A DNA stretch of 20,039 nucleotides from a virus, in the IMG/VR virus record IMGVR_UViG_3300028025_006541, positions 1-20,039 of that record; one strand, given 5' to 3'. A program made the translations under genes and the position numbers. Below the pieces are notes generated by a model. It ran no database searches. It was not told the origin of the DNA and saw only the letters and a program-made list of their open reading frames with translations. Positions 6,318-20,039 of this stretch are shown here, in pieces. Each line of letters starts with the position of its first letter. The stretch's first letter is position 1.

Positions 6318-6495
6318 CTTCTACCTCCACGAAATCAAAGATCTGTTTCTTCAAACGAACGTGTAGTTTGCTAGCGTACGCGCTTGCATCCCACATCTGA
6401 GTGTTGCCGTAGTGAATCTCCGCAAGCTTGAGTGCAGTCAATAGACGGTACACATCATCTTGGGGAATATCAATGTTTACTAGTTGCTTAGTCAT
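6301..6495 (-). CDS. Hypothetical protein, 64 residues
   Basis: Starts MTKQLVNIDIPQDDVYRLLTALKLAEIHYG at an ATG that overlaps the subtilase stop as TAATG, so it is probably translated from the subtilase message. Predicted helical with an acidic end (VEVEDGEDA). No family is recognised. Confidence 0.55.
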   Translation of the reverse strand: MTKQLVNIDIPQDDVYRLLTALKLAEIHYGNTQMWDASAYASKLHVRLKKQIFDFVEVEDGEDA

Positions 6496-7697
6496 TATCT
6501 AACCCTTACGGTCAAACTTGGAAGTCCAATTCCTAGATACCCAACTGCACTAACTCGGTAGTATCCAGCAACTGAAACATCTGCAAATACATCAGGAGTT
6601 GTAGTAGTGACCACCGTAGTCCAAACGCTACCATTTGCACTACTCTCTATCTTGTAGCCAATGACTCCAGAAGTATCAGCATTAGTTGGTGCCTTCCATG
6701 AGAGCTTGTAGCCAGAGGTTGCCTTACTTGCAAAGACTGCAGTTGGCTTTACAGGAACAGTAGTGGTTTTAGCTGGAGAACTAATAGCCATAGGTGCGTC
6801 CACTACAGCAGGTGCTGGCTTGACTACAGGAGTGCCACCAAGAAATGCAGTGCTAAGTAGGTAGTTACCATTGATTGACTTTGCATCTATTACTGCACCA
6901 GCAAGTGCACCATCACGTAGCGCCTTGGCAACTTCCCATGGTTTAGCGGTTGGATTTTTTTCTAGATACAAAGCAGCAACACCAACAACGTGAGGCGATG
7001 CCATTGAGGTTCCGGTCATGGTTTTGTAGGCACTAGGTCTAGCCCAGTCTTCAGAATTAATCAAACCACCTGGAGCAAAAATATCTACGCACTCACCATA
7101 AGCCGAACTAGTAGTGCGCTGATCATTCTTATTAATCCCGGCAACGGTAAAGGCATTAGGTGTACCAGAAGGGCTCCATCTACATGCATCAGTGTTTGTG
7201 TTTGATGCTGCAACTACTGGGAGAATGCCAGCAGCGTATAGACGATCAATAGCGGCATCTACAGTGGCGCTTTTGCCAACAGTCACACTGATGTTTACAA
7301 CTGCAGGGCCATTGTTCATAGCAATTACTTTGTCAATACCAGCAACCACGTCTTTAGGGTAGGCAGCACCTTTACAATCAGTCACCTTAATAGAGACAAT
7401 TTTTACGTCGCGGGCAACTCCGAACTCCGAAGAGCCAATGATCCCGGCTACGTGAGTCCCGTGCCCGTGGCAATCAACATCGCCAGAAGCGCGTCCACCA
7501 AATCCAGGGTCAGTAAGTGCAACACCAGTATCTAGAACATAGGCAGTTACGCCAGCCCCCGTGAGTGACGCGGAGTAGTTGCCGTCAACGGCACCATCAA
7601 TGCGGTCTAGACCCCATGAAGATACGGCAGCATAGGCAGGAACAGCGGTTAGTGTAAGTGAAGCAGCTAAGGCTCCAACAATCAGTTTTTTATTCAT
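6495..7697 (-). CDS. Secreted subtilisin-like serine protease (S8) with C-terminal Fn3-like domain
   Basis: A signal peptide (residues 1-23, ending AYA-A) leads into a proteinase-K-like S8 domain. The catalytic residues are Asp56 in YVLDTGV, His79 in CHGHGTHVAG and Ser231 in GTSMASPH, with the oxyanion Asn near 166. The usual I9 propeptide is missing: mature-looking sequence (WGLDRID) begins right after the signal. Cysteines at 76, 108, 172 and 203 could form disulfides, consistent with export. After a Pro/Val/Ala-rich linker (about 285-315), the last 85 residues look like a fibronectin type III fold. The protein should leave the cell or sit on the wall. Such proteases are uncommon in phages; roles could include surface remodelling, lysis or exclusion. 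It has its own strong promoter, with a start at the ATG itself (leaderless). Confidence 0.9.
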   Translation of the reverse strand: MNKKLIVGALAASLTLTAVPAYAAVSSWGLDRIDGAVDGNYSASLTGAGVTAYVLDTGVALTDPGFGGRASGDVDCHGHGTHVAGIIGSSEFGVARDVKIVSIKVTDCKGAAYPKDVVAGIDKVIAMNNGPAVVNISVTVGKSATVDAAIDRLYAAGILPVVAASNTNTDACRWSPSGTPNAFTVAGINKNDQRTTSSAYGECVDIFAPGGLINSEDWARPSAYKTMTGTSMASPHVVGVAALYLEKNPTAKPWEVAKALRDGALAGAVIDAKSINGNYLLSTAFLGGTPVVKPAPAVVDAPMAISSPAKTTTVPVKPTAVFASKATSGYKLSWKAPTNADTSGVIGYKIESSANGSVWTTVVTTTTPDVFADVSVAGYYRVSAVGYLGIGLPSLTVRVR

Positions 7698-9149: not shown

Positions 9150-9494
9150 CTAGTGATCGGACAGTAGGTACTCTAAAAGCTTTGGATTATCTCTTAATAG
9201 AACCAGGAGTGATTCTTCCCAAATCCCGATAAAAAAGTGCTCCCAGGCATCAAAGCTATCGCTTTTCTTTGGGACAACGGAGGTGTCGTATACGTTTCTA
9301 GCTGCGTGCATAAGCTCGTGCCAGAGTGTCAGTTGTTTTCTACTATGAGCGATCTCTGAATCAATAACAATCAGATTTTCAGTATCAAGCGTATAACCAA
9401 AAGTGCCATCATTAAGCATGCCATCATCTTTGCGAGAGCGCTCAATTACGTCAAACCACTGGCTACCAACCCTGACTCTCTCAGGCATACCCAT
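9150..9494 (-). CDS. Small HExxH metallopeptidase-like protein (ImmA/IrrE or SprT type)
   Basis: The 114-residue protein has TLWHELMHAARN with H59-E60-x-x-H63, the zinc-binding HExxH motif. A helix with acidic residues follows (WEESLL, Glu93/94), from which the third zinc ligand could come. Size and motif resemble the ImmA/IrrE-like phage peptidases that cleave repressors in some phages. No repressor gene is next to it, so the target is unknown. The start is preceded by GGAG. Confidence 0.65.
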   Translation of the reverse strand: MGMPERVRVGSQWFDVIERSRKDDGMLNDGTFGYTLDTENLIVIDSEIAHSRKQLTLWHELMHAARNVYDTSVVPKKSDSFDAWEHFFIGIWEESLLVLLRDNPKLLEYLLSDH

Positions 9495-9520
9495 AAGACG
9501 CTCCTAGTAATGATGAAGTA

Positions 9521-9778
9521 CTAGTTTACCGCGGATTCTATTACCCCTAGAGCCCAGCCCACACAGGCGCTATCTTCGGCTTCAAAGGCCTGTATTAGCT
9601 TGAGTTTCATGTCTTCTGCCCCTAGCTCATAGCCAAAGTTAGTTGAAGAATCTATAGCCTCTGCTATAGAGTTCTGGAGGTTCTGCTTAGCGCTCATAGC
9701 CGATCGTACGGACGCTCCAATTTTTGACACAATTACGTCATCTAAATCAGGAACATTTTCAAAATCATTTAAAGACAT
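9521..9778 (-). CDS. Hypothetical protein, 85 residues
   Basis: Starts MSLNDFENVPDLDDVIVSK at an ATG that overlaps the thyX stop as TAATG, so it is probably co-translated with thyX. Predicted helical, with LQNSIAEAIDSSTNFGYELG in the middle. It has no recognised motif. Confidence 0.5.
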   Translation of the reverse strand: MSLNDFENVPDLDDVIVSKIGASVRSAMSAKQNLQNSIAEAIDSSTNFGYELGAEDMKLKLIQAFEAEDSACVGWALGVIESAVN

Positions 9779-10502: not shown

Positions 10503-11123
10503 TTATACAACACCATCTTCAGTCCAAACAAAAGAAGTGATTACATACCTCGTTGGGCCATCTCCAACTGGCTTAACCCCGTGTATGTATTCTTCACCCG
10601 AAGAAAATATGATCAGGCTTTTGGCCGGTGGCCTAAGGGATAGGCCCCTGTCAGGAAAATAGAGCTCACCGTCTAGATAGTTATCGTTGATATAGGTCAC
10701 AGATGCATAGTGGAGTCTATCGTCGTACCCTCTATCGTGGTGTTCTGGTAGGGCTACTCCTGGCTTTTGTCGCTGTATGTTAGAAAAATTTCTTAAAGAA
10801 TAAGATGGATCAAAGAATGCTGACATTCTTTTTGTCAATCGATCGGATAGGTCTTCGTCCGGTAGTGTGAGCGTCTTATCTACCCAAAACTCATTGAAAG
10901 GTATATCAGGGAAAAGCGTGTAATCCTCGTTACCATACTTCTCCATAGATTGTACCTTTAGGCCCTGCATGTAGCCATAGCACCAGTCTTCTTCAGTCGC
11001 TGATTCTGCTACATCATAGATATAAGAACGCTCTTCTTCGGTAATAAAGTCTTCTACCAGATAGATACCAGTATCTATCTCGGTTGCTTTAAATCCGCTA
11101 TTTTCAAATGAGCTAAGGTCCAT
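10503..11123 (-). CDS. 2-oxoglutarate/Fe(II) oxygenase, prolyl-4-hydroxylase-like (1 of 4)
   Basis: A 206-residue double-stranded beta-helix protein with an H128-x-D130 pair (LPEHHDRG), a distal His181 (YIHGV) and Arg192 (GPTRYVI) that would bind the 2-oxoglutarate carboxylate. All four iron and cosubstrate ligands are present. Such enzymes hydroxylate proteins, nucleobases or small metabolites. It sits directly after the carbamoyltransferase (12 bases apart), so both may act on the same product. No ribosome-binding site is obvious. Confidence 0.85.
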   Translation of the reverse strand: MDLSSFENSGFKATEIDTGIYLVEDFITEEERSYIYDVAESATEEDWCYGYMQGLKVQSMEKYGNEDYTLFPDIPFNEFWVDKTLTLPDEDLSDRLTKRMSAFFDPSYSLRNFSNIQRQKPGVALPEHHDRGYDDRLHYASVTYINDNYLDGELYFPDRGLSLRPPAKSLIIFSSGEEYIHGVKPVGDGPTRYVITSFVWTEDGVV

Positions 11124-11135
11124 AGAGTAAGTTTA

Positions 11136-12581
11136 CTAACTTTTGCCAGTTATAACTCTAGTTCCATATAGATTTTCCCAGATAAGTAAATCAGTTTTAT
11201 CATTTAGTAAGGGCTGACCCTTTATATTTAAGCTCGTATTTAGCAGCACGGGAACTCCTGTTAGCTTGTACCACTTCTCTAAAACAGAATATAGGCCGGG
11301 GTGCTGAGTCTTATTTACTGTCTGAACCCTAGAAGTTCCATCTTTGTGGACAACACTAGGAATTAGATCTGGCTTTAAACATTTAGGGGTGAACTGCATA
11401 TATGGAGACGCGTAGTCCATATCAAACCACTCGCTTGCATGCTCTTCCATAACTACCGGAGCAAACGGCCTAAACAGCTCACGTTGCTTAATCTTGTTTA
11501 CTTTATCCTTGATGCCAGGATCGCGAGGATCAGCGAGAATACTACGGTTGCCAAGAGCGCGCGGTCCATACTCTGCCCTTCCAATAGCTACTGGTGCCAC
11601 TTTATCTTTGATAAGGGCGTTTATTATTTCATCTACAGGATATTCCCCGGGGATATTAGTTCCCAGATAAGGCCCCTGCCAGTCAAGTTTCTTACCGTGA
11701 ACAATTGCTGCAGCACCTAGAGAAGACCCGGCATCTCCCGGATTAGGCATAATCCACACATTAGGAAATATGTCATGAAGAAGAGTATTTGCTTTGCTAT
11801 TGAGAGCGCAGCCTCCAGCAAAAACTAGATTCTCGCTCCACGACTCCTGCCGGGCGATGTAGATGAAATCCCAGAGCCTATCTTCATATACCTTTTGAAC
11901 TGCTGCAGCGATATGAAATTTGTCGTCTTTAGATATCTCTTGGCCCCAGTCATAGATGCCTTTATGAAAATTATATGTTTGCTCGTATACAGAAGGAAAA
12001 TACTCAGATACCTTATCGAAATACAAATCAGGATCTCCGTAGGCTGCCATACCCATCATGATGTACTCTTCTTCATTTGGCTTTAACCCGACCAGCTGAG
12101 TAAACGCCGAGTAAAAGAGCCCAAAACTAAAGGGGTATTTCCATCGCTTTACTTGCTTAAGCTCATCGCCCTTAGCGTGCCAGATCGAACTAGTGGTGAA
12201 CTCGCCGATTGCATCTAACACGACCACTACTGCATCGTCAAATGGCGAGGTGTAATACCCCGCTGCGGCATGGGAGTGGTGGTGATATGCCGAGTAGACA
12301 GGGATACCCTTAAGTTCTGACATAGTCTTGTAGAAAGGCCTACCCCCACCAAGACCTCCACGGGTTAGTATGCGCCACTTCTTTAACCAGCGGTCTTCGT
12401 AGTAAGCAATTTGATCCGGCTTACCGTACGACAGAGCCTCTAAAATAAGTTCTCTGTTTGTGTACCAATCATTCTTTTTCTTGGAATATCGCTCGGCATG
12501 GCCAGCAAATAAGACCCTACCGTCTTCGATTAAAGAAACTGAAGCGTCGTGAGTAGTCTCGTTGATTCCAAGAATGCGCAC
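11136..12581 (-). CDS. NodU/TobZ-type O-carbamoyltransferase
   Basis: The protein carries the family's marks: GINETTHDAS (His11), H-rich YHHHSHAAAGYY (100-109), VVLDAIGE, FAGGCALNSK, NPGDAGSSLGAA, EYGPRALGNRSIL and LLNTSLNIKGQPL. In TobZ the equivalent histidines and aspartates bind iron, and the Arg-rich part binds carbamoyl-phosphate. At 481 residues it is shorter than the usual 550-600. It transfers a carbamoyl group to a hydroxyl. Known substrates are antibiotics and Nod factors, and, for phage members of the family described in environmental viromes, 5-hydroxymethylcytosine in DNA. The start is GTG, overlapping the upstream stop as TAGTG, so it is probably coupled to the dehydrogenase-like gene. 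Confidence 0.9.
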   Translation of the reverse strand: MRILGINETTHDASVSLIEDGRVLFAGHAERYSKKKNDWYTNRELILEALSYGKPDQIAYYEDRWLKKWRILTRGGLGGGRPFYKTMSELKGIPVYSAYHHHSHAAAGYYTSPFDDAVVVVLDAIGEFTTSSIWHAKGDELKQVKRWKYPFSFGLFYSAFTQLVGLKPNEEEYIMMGMAAYGDPDLYFDKVSEYFPSVYEQTYNFHKGIYDWGQEISKDDKFHIAAAVQKVYEDRLWDFIYIARQESWSENLVFAGGCALNSKANTLLHDIFPNVWIMPNPGDAGSSLGAAAIVHGKKLDWQGPYLGTNIPGEYPVDEIINALIKDKVAPVAIGRAEYGPRALGNRSILADPRDPGIKDKVNKIKQRELFRPFAPVVMEEHASEWFDMDYASPYMQFTPKCLKPDLIPSVVHKDGTSRVQTVNKTQHPGLYSVLEKWYKLTGVPVLLNTSLNIKGQPLLNDKTDLLIWENLYGTRVITGKS

Positions 12582-13749: not shown

Positions 13750-14376
13750 CTAGTCATTAAAGAACTGCCTTTGAGATACGTTTCCTCTTTTGCCAAAGAA
13801 AAAGACGAAATTTTTCCTAAAACCGCCAGTAACTTTACGAACCTCGTGGATGTGCTCTACATCACCTTTAAAGAACAAAAGCTGGCCCATCTTAGGCTCA
13901 ATCAGTACATCTTGTAATTCAAAATAAACTTCCCCGCCCTGAAAATCTTCCCCGTAGTTATTTAGATAAAGCAAAGCAGAGTACTCTAGCTCTTCAGGAA
14001 TTCCGTCATCGCGCCAAGGGGAACCATCTAATTTAGTGCTATCAGAGTGCATAGGGTTTTCGCCGCCCTCAGTGAGTATCTGGTAGTTGCAGTTAACTAA
14101 ATCCATCTCTACCCCGAAGTGCTCCTCAAGAGCAGACTGAACAGACGCAAACATCTCTTCAATTTTTAAGACAGTGCCTTCGTGCTCAGTATTTTCAAAG
14201 CCATTAATTGCTCGCCTTGTCTTGCCGACCTCAGCCGCCTCAGAAGAAGTACCGTAGCCTAATGCACCGCTCATGCCGTACCTTGGGGTTGGTTTAGAGA
14301 TCGGATCCAAGAAGTCGCAAAACTCTATAGAAAGCTCGTCTGATATGAACTTATCTATTACTACTGGATCTTCCAT
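13750..14376 (-). CDS. 2-oxoglutarate/Fe(II) oxygenase (3 of 4)
   Basis: 208 residues with H110-x-D112 (PMHSDSTK), a distal His at 177 (or 175) in VEHIHEV and Arg187. The strand YSALLYLN and the block GGEVYF are typical of the P4H-like family. It is less similar to the others, so the four enzymes probably do not simply duplicate one activity. It follows a short gap after the 79-residue gene. Confidence 0.85.
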   Translation of the reverse strand: MEDPVVIDKFISDELSIEFCDFLDPISKPTPRYGMSGALGYGTSSEAAEVGKTRRAINGFENTEHEGTVLKIEEMFASVQSALEEHFGVEMDLVNCNYQILTEGGENPMHSDSTKLDGSPWRDDGIPEELEYSALLYLNNYGEDFQGGEVYFELQDVLIEPKMGQLLFFKGDVEHIHEVRKVTGGFRKNFVFFFGKRGNVSQRQFFND

Positions 14377-17648: not shown

Positions 17649-18296
17649 GTGGACGCATCAATTTATGATGTAAAGATCGCTTCCTGGGACGGCCTGGAAG
17701 ACAACTTTTTAGAGAAGTATAAAGGTAAGGTCTGCCTAATAATTAACGTCACCGCGGACTGCGGCAACGCTCCTCAGTACGGAATCATAGAAGAGATCTA
17801 TCAGAAGTATAAAGACCAAGGCTTTGAAGTAATTGCTGTACCTACCAACGACTACTGTGGTCCTGGAATTACCTATGGTAAATGGGAGCCAGGCATCGAG
17901 AACGCCGGAGAAGCCAAGGAGTATGCGGAGAATGTCTATGACGTTACATACTCATTCACTGAACTGGTCACCTCTAACCCAACTACCCAGTGGTCAGGCA
18001 AACTAAAGCCAGGACAAACTACCCACCCGCTATACAAGGCTCTGACTGCATCTGAAGAAAACGGAGAGTATTTTATGGGCGGTAACTTCGAGAAGTTCTT
18101 AGTAGGGCGTTCTGGTCAAGTAGAGGGTATATTCCCAAACTACACACTTCTGGACTACGCTAGAGTTAATTTCCTAAACGGAAATGCTAAAGCCGGAGGC
18201 GAGACAGAAAACATCATGCCAAAAGATTCATCAACTTCATATGACGATATTTGTAAAGCCATTGAAACAGCTCTTGCCGAGCCGGCCCTAGTATAA
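17649..18296 (+). CDS. Glutathione-peroxidase-fold protein, copy 1 of a tandem pair
   Basis: 215 residues in the thioredoxin/GPx fold. The core KVCLIINVTADCGNAPQYG (Cys38 in the peroxidatic position), then IYQKYKDQGFEVIAVP and NFEKFLVGRSGQV match the GPx family. The usual glutamine of the CNQF block is replaced (VPTNDYCGPG), the resolving-type Cys has moved to the DYC segment, and the Trp before NFEKF is Gly. The enzyme may therefore reduce another peroxide or do a different thiol chemistry. It starts at GTG with GGAG seven bases upstream. It lies in a phage genome with few recognisable redox genes. Confidence 0.8.
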   Translation: MDASIYDVKIASWDGLEDNFLEKYKGKVCLIINVTADCGNAPQYGIIEEIYQKYKDQGFEVIAVPTNDYCGPGITYGKWEPGIENAGEAKEYAENVYDVTYSFTELVTSNPTTQWSGKLKPGQTTHPLYKALTASEENGEYFMGGNFEKFLVGRSGQVEGIFPNYTLLDYARVNFLNGNAKAGGETENIMPKDSSTSYDDICKAIETALAEPALV

Positions 18297-18310: not shown

Positions 18311-18937
18311 ATGTCAACTTCAGTTTATGACATCCCACTCAAGACCTGGGACGGACAAGAAAATTTCCTTGAAAAATACAAGGGCAAAGTCTGCATGGTA
18401 ATCAACGTGACTGCTGACTGTGGTAATGCCCCTCAGTACGGAATTGTTGAAGAGATATACCAGAAGTATAAAGACCAGGGCTTCGAGGTCATAGCAGTAC
18501 CTACTAACGATTACTGCGGACCGGGAATCACGTACGGCAAATGGGAACCGGGCATAGAGAACGCCGAGCAGGCTAGAACTTACGCTAAAGAAATTTATGA
18601 CGTGACTTATGACTTCTCGGAATTGATTACTTCAAAAGCCGGAGCCCCATGGTCCAATAAGTTTAAAGAAGGACAAACTCCTCACGCGCTGTATGAGAAG
18701 CTGGTTGGAGACACCAATGGTGACGGTATGTATGGAAACTTTGAAAAGTTTCTAGTAAACCGTAAGGGCGAGGTAGTGGACAACTTCTCTAACTACACTC
18801 TTCTTGACTACGCCTACGACAACATGGTTAAGGGTGTCAAGCCTATTGGTGGCAAGCCACACGGCATCGCTCCTATGACTTCAGAAGAAGCATACAACGC
18901 AATCTGCGCATCTATTGAAAAAGCACTAGCCGAATAA
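18311..18937 (+). CDS. Glutathione-peroxidase-fold protein, copy 2 of a tandem pair
   Basis: 208 residues, starting 14 bases after copy 1 and probably on the same transcript. Cys37 is the peroxidatic residue. From FLEKYKGKVC to WEPGIENA the two proteins are nearly identical (about 70 residues), while the C-terminal halves differ much more. At DNA level the matching part differs mostly at third codon positions, so the pair is old and selected, not a recent copy. The same substitutions at the catalytic Gln and Trp positions are found in both. Confidence 0.8.
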   Translation: MSTSVYDIPLKTWDGQENFLEKYKGKVCMVINVTADCGNAPQYGIVEEIYQKYKDQGFEVIAVPTNDYCGPGITYGKWEPGIENAEQARTYAKEIYDVTYDFSELITSKAGAPWSNKFKEGQTPHALYEKLVGDTNGDGMYGNFEKFLVNRKGEVVDNFSNYTLLDYAYDNMVKGVKPIGGKPHGIAPMTSEEAYNAICASIEKALAE

Positions 18938-18949
18938 GAGTATTAAAGT

Positions 18950-18984
18950 AAAAACCCCTCGCCTTCCCGGGCAAGGGGTTTTTT
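18950..18984. terminator. Bidirectional intrinsic terminator
   Basis: CCCCTCGCC (18955-18963) pairs with GGCAAGGGG (18970-18978), eight of nine pairs, around a 6-base loop. Six T follow on the plus strand and five A precede the hairpin, giving T on the minus strand. It can end the GPx genes from the left and the structured RNA from the right. Confidence 0.85.
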
Positions 18985-19053
18985 GCTAATGACGTAACCT
19001 AGGCCGAGAATCCCAGCCCCTCAGTGCTTAGCAACACCTTCTCGATTACACCG

Positions 19054-19134
19054 CGGACTAGATGGGATTTGCACCCACTAGCAGAGTTTTACTAGTACCT
19101 CTACACCTTGTCCTCTATCGCTAGAGGCTAGTCC
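19054..19134 (-). other. tRNA-like domain within the structured RNA
   Basis: A perfect 7-bp acceptor stem, GGACTAG (19134-19128) with CTAGTCC (19061-19055), is followed on the 3' side by a T-arm with a seven-base TGCAAAT loop (19078-19062). The D-arm is a short CCTCT/AGAGG hairpin lacking the GG of normal D-loops, and the anticodon arm has a stem AGAG/CTCT with an oversized loop. No CCA is encoded. This is more like a tRNA-like domain (as in tmRNA) or a degenerate tRNA than a working tRNA, so I give no anticodon. Confidence 0.4.
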
Positions 19135-19244
19135 AACGCCTTAGACTCCTTCAACCGTCCGGAACAGGGTGTCTAACACTTGCCCTACCGCACCCTGGGC
19201 CATTTAGCTTGTTGCGCTTTGTGAGCGGTACGGAATTTTATTCA

Positions 19245-19273
19245 ACTCTAAGTATAGATGAATCTTAAGTCAA
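19245..19273 (-). promoter_or_regulatory. Promoter of the structured RNA
   Basis: On the minus strand TTGACT (19273-19268), 17 bases, then TAGAGT (19250-19245). The start would be near 19238, just before the first paired segment of the RNA. Spacing and both boxes are close to consensus. Confidence 0.6.
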
Positions 19274-19779: not shown

Positions 19780-19784
19780 GGGTG

Positions 19785-20039
19785 TGGAGATGGGGGTATT
19801 CGAAACCCCGTCCAATTACCAGTCAACTATTCTTCTACAAGCTTAGGCTTTACCAGCCACGGTACTGCGTTGGGTCCGATATTCTCAAGCCTCGTCACCC
19901 GCGGGCCTTAGGGTTGTTCTATTTATTTAAAACCTGACTGCCCAGCTAGAACTACTGCTTTGTCAGGGGCATAAGCGGCTATTAAGCAGCTAGTGCGAAT
20001 GCTGAACGTGAGTTTGCATTTATGGTTTGCCACACTTAA
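19785..20039 (-). ncRNA. ssrA: tmRNA (transfer-messenger RNA), 3' part, cut by the right window edge
   Basis: On the minus strand the tag frame reads ANSRSAFALAA and ends in TAA followed by TAG (resume GCA at 20017-20015, stop at 19984-19982); the ALAA end is the classic proteolysis tag. Downstream, CCTGAC (19967-19962) pairs with GTCAGG (19938-19933), and its loop GTTCTA (19952-19947) pairs with TAGAAC (19921-19916), the H-type pseudoknot expected after the tag. The gene ends in a T-arm, GGGGT-TTCGAAT-ACCCC, and an acceptor half CATCTCC plus A; CCA is not encoded. The 5' half with the GGAGATG partner and start is outside the window. Phage tmRNAs can rescue ribosomes stalled during infection. 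Confidence 0.9.

Follow-up and report, generated by a model that had tools for sequence, protein, structure and literature searches.

The window, the whole stretch of DNA that was analysed, is an entire linear IMG/VR virus fragment of 20,039 bases. It carries a structured RNA on the minus strand in the neighbourhood of a phage tmRNA gene, an HNH_3 endonuclease gene and a glutathione-peroxidase-like (GPx-like) gene. The features are given below; contigs of other viruses are designated by L numbers.

19782..20039, minus: phage tmRNA gene (RF00023, 61.9 bits), its 5' part lost at the contig end
19318..19779, plus: HNH_3 endonuclease gene, between the tmRNA gene and the structured RNA
19245..19273, minus: promoter-like TTGACT-17-TAGAGT; expected start near 19238, at the beginning of conserved module A
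19236-18950, minus: structured RNA in three parts (5' pseudoknot module, tRNA-like domain, 3' three-way-junction module)
19136..19236, minus: module A, the 5' domain; homologues in L097, L098, L118/L190, L199 and L200
19233-19228/19193-19188, minus: module A helix P1, CCGUAC/GUGCGG in the window, interleaved with P3
19200-19197/19185-19182, minus: module A helix P3, GCCC/GGGC, interleaved with P1
19179-19171/19146-19138, minus: module A long helix P4, supported by alignment A1
19055..19134, minus: tRNA-like domain, acceptor GGACTAG/CTAGTCC; homologue in L040 (2002-2078), partial in L097
19127-19112, minus: D-like hairpin CCTCTA-GCGA-TAGAGG, inside the tRNA-like domain
19104-19081, minus: anticodon-like arm with a 12-nt loop, inside the tRNA-like domain
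19090..19097, minus: 8-nt palindrome UACUAGUA in the anticodon-like loop, a candidate kissing-dimer site
19078-19062, minus: T-arm GTGGG-TGCAAAT-CCCAT (T-loop UGCAAAU), inside the tRNA-like domain
18956..19053, minus: module B2, a three-way junction (19052-18989) and the terminator hairpin
18950..18983, minus: terminator hairpin, 14 bp and a T-run
18311-18937: GPx-like gene, its end facing the terminator hairpin of the RNA

The tag of the phage tmRNA, read from the sequence, is ANSRSAFALAA, and those of related phages are ANSRSAFALAA or AESRSAFALAA. We take this tag type to be actinobacterial, which hints at the host only loosely. The HNH_3 gene lies flush with the tmRNA 3' end, and a 69% homologue occupies the same place in L008 (1646-2107); the position suggests endonuclease homing beside the tmRNA.

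The transcription signals of the original prediction were both found. The promoter-like TTGACT-17-TAGAGT lies at 19273-19245 on the minus strand, and the start expected from it fits the beginning of module A; two promoter-like sites occurred in 450 bases against 0.5 +/- 0.9 in shuffles, which is weak when taken alone. The intrinsic terminator is a 14-bp hairpin with a T-run at 18983-18950 that covaries in relatives. A consensus terminator scanner did not call this hairpin, a miss probably due to pairing between the hairpin's A-run and T-run. The hairpin is probably bidirectional and serves the GPx-like gene ending at 18937 as well.

Folding of the whole RNA gave a z of -2.0 against shuffles, which is moderate only, and module A alone folded no better than shuffles (z -0.04). 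The decisive evidence is comparative. The case for module A in particular rests on covariation, since nested folding is blind to its pseudoknot.

Homologues and compensatory changes

Homologues were reached by two routes: a T-arm pattern scan, which led to L040, and the fetching of phages, first by their tmRNA tag and then by a module A pattern. Module A is shared with six further virus contigs, among which five sequences are distinct, and module B2 with three, two sequences being distinct. All homologues are metagenomic, and the distinct sequences including the window amount to six for module A, three for module B2 and two for the full tRNA-like domain. The T-arm pattern GGGTGCAAATCCCATC matched 53 contigs, mostly at ordinary tRNAs or by chance, with L040 as the only true homologue; a second pattern, covering the linker and T-arm, again gave L040 only. 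Searches with covariance models added no members, the best remaining matches being noise (E >= 0.16). BLAST of the window RNA against INPHARED phages gave no match, and with L098 as query the matches listed were all on or around its tRNA-Thr. A weak BLAST match of L040 in Arthrobacter phage Auxilium, within a CDS and with a TTC T-loop, was judged unrelated, and the one Prevotella match from a pattern search of genome contigs is probably due to chance. Scans with the GPx and HNH proteins found relatives without this RNA.

Alignment A1 of module A had seven rows, six of them distinct and the window included. With the pseudoknot, 96.3% of the alignment cells were paired and double-sided changes occurred at six pairs. 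None of 500 shuffles reached the covariation score, and sliding the structure by 1-3 columns lowered the pairing to 26-41%. At P1 pair 6/55, G-C and A-U each occurred in three distinct rows, as did C-G and U-A at P3 pair 46/62. Since P1 and P3 interleave, the module A fold is a pseudoknot, although a different one from that predicted originally. The H-type pseudoknot proposed at 19141-19197 (CAGGGTG/CACCCTG) was 69% paired in the homologues with no double changes, a result equal to that of shuffles. The expectation of a pseudoknot in the RNA held, whereas the helix proposed for it gave way to the covarying P1/P3 pair.

Module B2 homologues were found in L098 and L118/L190, which together with the window gives three distinct sequences, and pairing was kept through double changes at 7 of the 30 pairs. 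The proposed pairing of the two RNA ends was not conserved: in L118/L190 approximately 1.1 kb, including four tRNA genes, separates the 5' module from the 3' module.

The tRNA-like domain folded at -29.3 kcal/mol (z -3.2 against shuffles). It has tRNA geometry in its 7-bp acceptor, 5-bp T-stem and 7-nt T-loop, while the canonical D-loop and 7-nt anticodon loop are absent, with a 4-nt GCGA loop and a 12-nt loop at these positions. The earlier description of a perfect 7-bp acceptor and T-arm at 19134-19055, with D and anticodon arms unlike those of a tRNA, was accurate. In L040 a domain with 77% identity lies approximately 200 nt upstream of that phage's own tmRNA. The two share the acceptor, the D-like hairpin, the linker ACAAGGUG, the anticodon-like arm and the T-arm; compensated differences were observed at acceptor pair 5 (U-A/C-G) and at three pairs of the D-like hairpin. 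The exact 7+5 bp acceptor/T stack is kept in both, and the other arms vary. In L097, which is cut by the contig end, the 5' strand of the acceptor is identical and the D-like hairpin similar. The full window-type domain is represented by two sequences, the window and L040, that is, by one full homologue.

Homologues with compensatory base changes, the absence of which would have refuted the original prediction, were found and support a discrete, structured noncoding RNA that includes a tRNA-like domain. Judging from the compensatory changes in relatives, the RNA folds are kept by selection.

tRNA-like domains and the tRNA slot beside phage tmRNAs

The window domain is part of a wider set located beside phage tmRNAs. 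Members have a GGACTG-type acceptor and a T-loop of the form TGCRANY rather than TTCRANY, and the canonical anticodon arm is absent. We performed a strict scan for cloverleaf ends (7-bp acceptor and 5-bp T-stem) in 124 loci comprising 1.16 Mb. TTC T-loops gave 129 annotated and 3 unannotated matches. TGC T-loops gave six matches, none of which was an annotated tRNA, and one of these (L120) is probably a chance match; T-loop dinucleotides other than TC or GC gave three matches (one annotated, two unannotated). A relaxed scan revealed a recurrent GGACTG...CAGTCC class with TGC T-loops beside tmRNA, and a TGC domain was present within 900 nt in 11 of the 45 distinct tmRNA loci. Real tRNAs at the same loci had widely varying acceptors, none of which used GGACTG. 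In place of GGACTG, the window has GGACTA and L040 has GGACCA.

One phage, L178, has three GGACTG tRNA-like domains downstream of its tmRNA (9202-9761). Connecting the last two is module E, a structured spacer which also follows the tmRNA in L121, L140 and L166. A manA RNA (RF01745) lies beside the tRNA-like domain in L121 (7233-7410) and L166 (1645-1822).

Module A was located immediately 5' of a tRNA slot, at a distance of a few bases, in all seven contigs. The slot held tRNA-Thr in L098, tRNA-Asn in L118/L190, tRNA-Trp in L199 and L200, and a tRNA-like domain in the window and L097. Shared context with differing content indicates that tRNA and tRNA-like domain are interchangeable in an otherwise conserved RNA. 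Module A starts right at the tmRNA 3' end in L097, L098 and L118; in the window the HNH gene intervenes. In several relatives the module that directly follows the tmRNA gene is probably co-transcribed with it.

A conserved spacer of approximately 180 nt, module C, was found in L040 (2079-2256), L107 (4907-5084), L118 (1519-1698) and L132 (3922-3778), among other contigs. It follows tRNA-Asn in L118, L190 and L107 and a tRNA-like domain in L040 and L132. Every copy found was preceded by a tRNA or tRNA-like domain, and module C matched no Rfam family.

Relation to known RNAs and possible function

ARAGORN called no tRNA in the RNA, and a lenient Rfam search gave no credible family; the sole Rfam match overlapping the RNA at E<=10 was rnk_pseudo (16 bits, E 9.8, cutoff 55). 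Neither RNase P RNA nor group I introns, the signature blocks of which the original prediction had likewise not seen, gave an Rfam match. A plain tRNA cluster was rejected, as relaxed ARAGORN gave only mutually overlapping, implausible models. The tRNA-like domain resembles tRNA (RF00005) in its 7-bp acceptor, 5-bp T-stem, 7-nt T-loop and cloverleaf-like order of arms, but differs in the TGC T-loop, the 4-nt GCGA D-like loop and the 12-nt anticodon-like loop, and it matched neither the Rfam tRNA model nor ARAGORN. Its earlier reading as a tRNA mimic is borne out at the level of structure only, as acceptor/T-arm geometry without a usable anticodon. Like tmRNA (RF00023), the RNA has a tRNA-like domain and a pseudoknot, and a tmRNA gene lies adjacent. 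However, its tRNA-like part is not built from the RNA's two ends and the true tmRNA is next door; as a tmRNA it gave no Rfam match, no tag reading frame and no hit with ARAGORN -m. The manA RNA (RF01745) is a structured RNA that in L121 and L166 neighbours a tRNA-like element of the same type, but it is a separate element and absent from the window.

GOLLD, an Rfam family of phages and prophages, and ROOL both lie near tRNA islands and assemble into homo-oligomers; tRNAs can be placed in the linkers of GOLLD (PMC12286853). A mycobacterial GOLLD locus has a pseudo-tRNA inside and an HNH gene in the cluster (PMC6582537). The setting of the window RNA is similar to that of GOLLD: a phage, a tRNA array, an internal tRNA or pseudo-tRNA and an HNH gene nearby (PMC12286853, PMC6582537). 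It differs in that the window RNA is approximately 290 nt long versus more than 400-800, and that its modules can occur apart. Neither the window nor the homologue L098 was matched at E<=10 by the GOLLD covariance model, with its universally conserved 3' region, so the relationship to GOLLD that had been suggested was not supported by sequence or structure. ROOL is likewise a structured RNA of phages and prophages with pseudoknots, near tRNA islands (PMC12286853), but the window RNA is about half its length and has no Rfam match. Lacking matches to the GOLLD and ROOL models, the window RNA was not filed as GOLLD; by analogy it may work like GOLLD. By the searches described above, the RNA is a new family, uncatalogued in Rfam or INPHARED.

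The best explanation, to which we assign a probability of about 0.42, is a modular phage RNA in which the tRNA-like domain serves as processing punctuation. Structure, conservation, slot exchange and acceptor/T-loop bias were observed; processing, release, stability and any regulatory target are inferred. Pseudoknotted module A would be the leader of the tRNA slot, the modules being common to tmRNA-carrying phages. In the window the slot is filled by the anticodon-less domain, followed by the three-way-junction module and terminator, and the RNA, separated from the tmRNA by the HNH gene, has its own promoter-like site. The domain keeps the acceptor/T-arm stack that is measured by RNase P and 3'-tRNA-processing enzymes. 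Host enzymes would cut at its ends, as at the real tRNA of sister phages, and thereby either free modules A and B, as small RNAs that are stable and protected at their ends, or cap them with a tRNA-like end. RNase P reads the T-arm/acceptor stack, and the D-loop is dispensable while a T-loop or similar loop is required (PMC4919913); the domain is therefore probably punctuation. An RNase P substrate would need a cleavable leader and behind it an acceptor and T-arm that stack, with a T-loop; this stacked geometry is predicted for the domain.

Punctuation leaves two features unexplained, the conserved acceptor sequence and the fixed-position loop palindromes. Ordinary tRNAs occupy the slot of several phages, so punctuation alone needs no special element. 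An enzyme that measures distance would not need GGACTG to be conserved to this extent; the conservation suggests a sequence-specific partner and counts against punctuation. That GGACTG is kept in domains with divergent bodies, when the acceptors of real tRNAs in the same phages vary widely, would fit a tRNA-like substrate or decoy acting off the ribosome, either CCA-tailed and perhaps charged or binding a tRNA-targeting host enzyme or toxin, as would the non-standard T-loop and missing anticodon arm. Non-proteinogenic tRNAs of S. aureus with altered elbow and T-stem offer a precedent (PMC4052509). We nevertheless regard this role as unlikely, as most synthetases could not recognise a domain without a canonical anticodon, the G3-U70 alanine determinant is absent, no partner gene was identified, and the acceptors of the window and L040 are themselves not GGACTG. 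The palindromes differ in sequence at the same loop position (ACUAGU in the window versus CUUAAG in L040), and type-2 domains have UCGCGA, CCGCGG, CCAUGG and UUGUGA (GU) in their loops. Column permutation reproduced the palindromes in 136/40000 (0.3%) and 1003/40000 (2.5%) of cases, in a test chosen after the data had been seen. Such fixed-position, sequence-varying palindromes suggest kissing-loop dimers. The uncut RNA could then dimerise or oligomerise into an RNA-only particle, a self-assembling scaffold with its precedent in the GOLLD/ROOL homo-oligomers and the tRNAs in GOLLD linkers (PMC12286853). This is unlikely to the same degree: the palindromes were spotted post hoc, type-1 domains have no conserved loop palindrome, the RNA has just about 290 nt, and modules A and B are so far apart in L118/L190.

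Slightly less likely than either is that the RNA represents a new class in phages, with an interchangeable, anticodon-less cartridge of conserved sequence that takes the place of the tRNA within a pseudoknotted scaffold and, through covarying palindromic kissing loops, homodimerises into an RNA-only assembly. The RNA is a discrete unit with its own promoter-like site and terminator hairpin, as expected of an independent trans-acting small RNA that pairs with host or phage mRNA, its tRNA-like part merely stabilising the 3' side; this we consider improbable, as the same modules in relatives are spacers of tmRNA/tRNA clusters and not stand-alone units. The real tRNAs in the slot of sister phages and the pseudo-tRNA within the mycobacterial GOLLD locus (PMC6582537) could point to a decaying tRNA gene cluster, with pseudo-tRNAs and spacers of leftover pairing. 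Decay is very improbable, however, given the compensatory changes in modules A and B2, the perfect acceptor with its compensated change in L040 (T-A to C-G) and the recurrence of the TGC T-loop class.

An uncatalogued RNA family is added to phages that already bear their own tmRNA and tRNAs. The slot suggests that larger structured RNAs can have, as an exchangeable part, either a tRNA or a look-alike that lacks the decoding arm. This bears on why GOLLD, ROOL and similarly ornate phage RNAs occupy tRNA arrays, sometimes enclosing tRNAs. The system is small enough, at about 290 nt, for direct tests of cleavage and assembly.

Elsewhere in the window, the GPx-like gene facing the RNA is the second of a tandem pair (17649-18296 and 18311-18937). 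A carbamoyltransferase gene (11136-12581) lies amid several 2OG-Fe(II) oxygenase genes (10503-11123, 13750-14376), which suggests a modification island. The ORF at 6495-7697 reads like a secreted subtilase-type protease, and a similar ORF is present in L040 (3236-5146).
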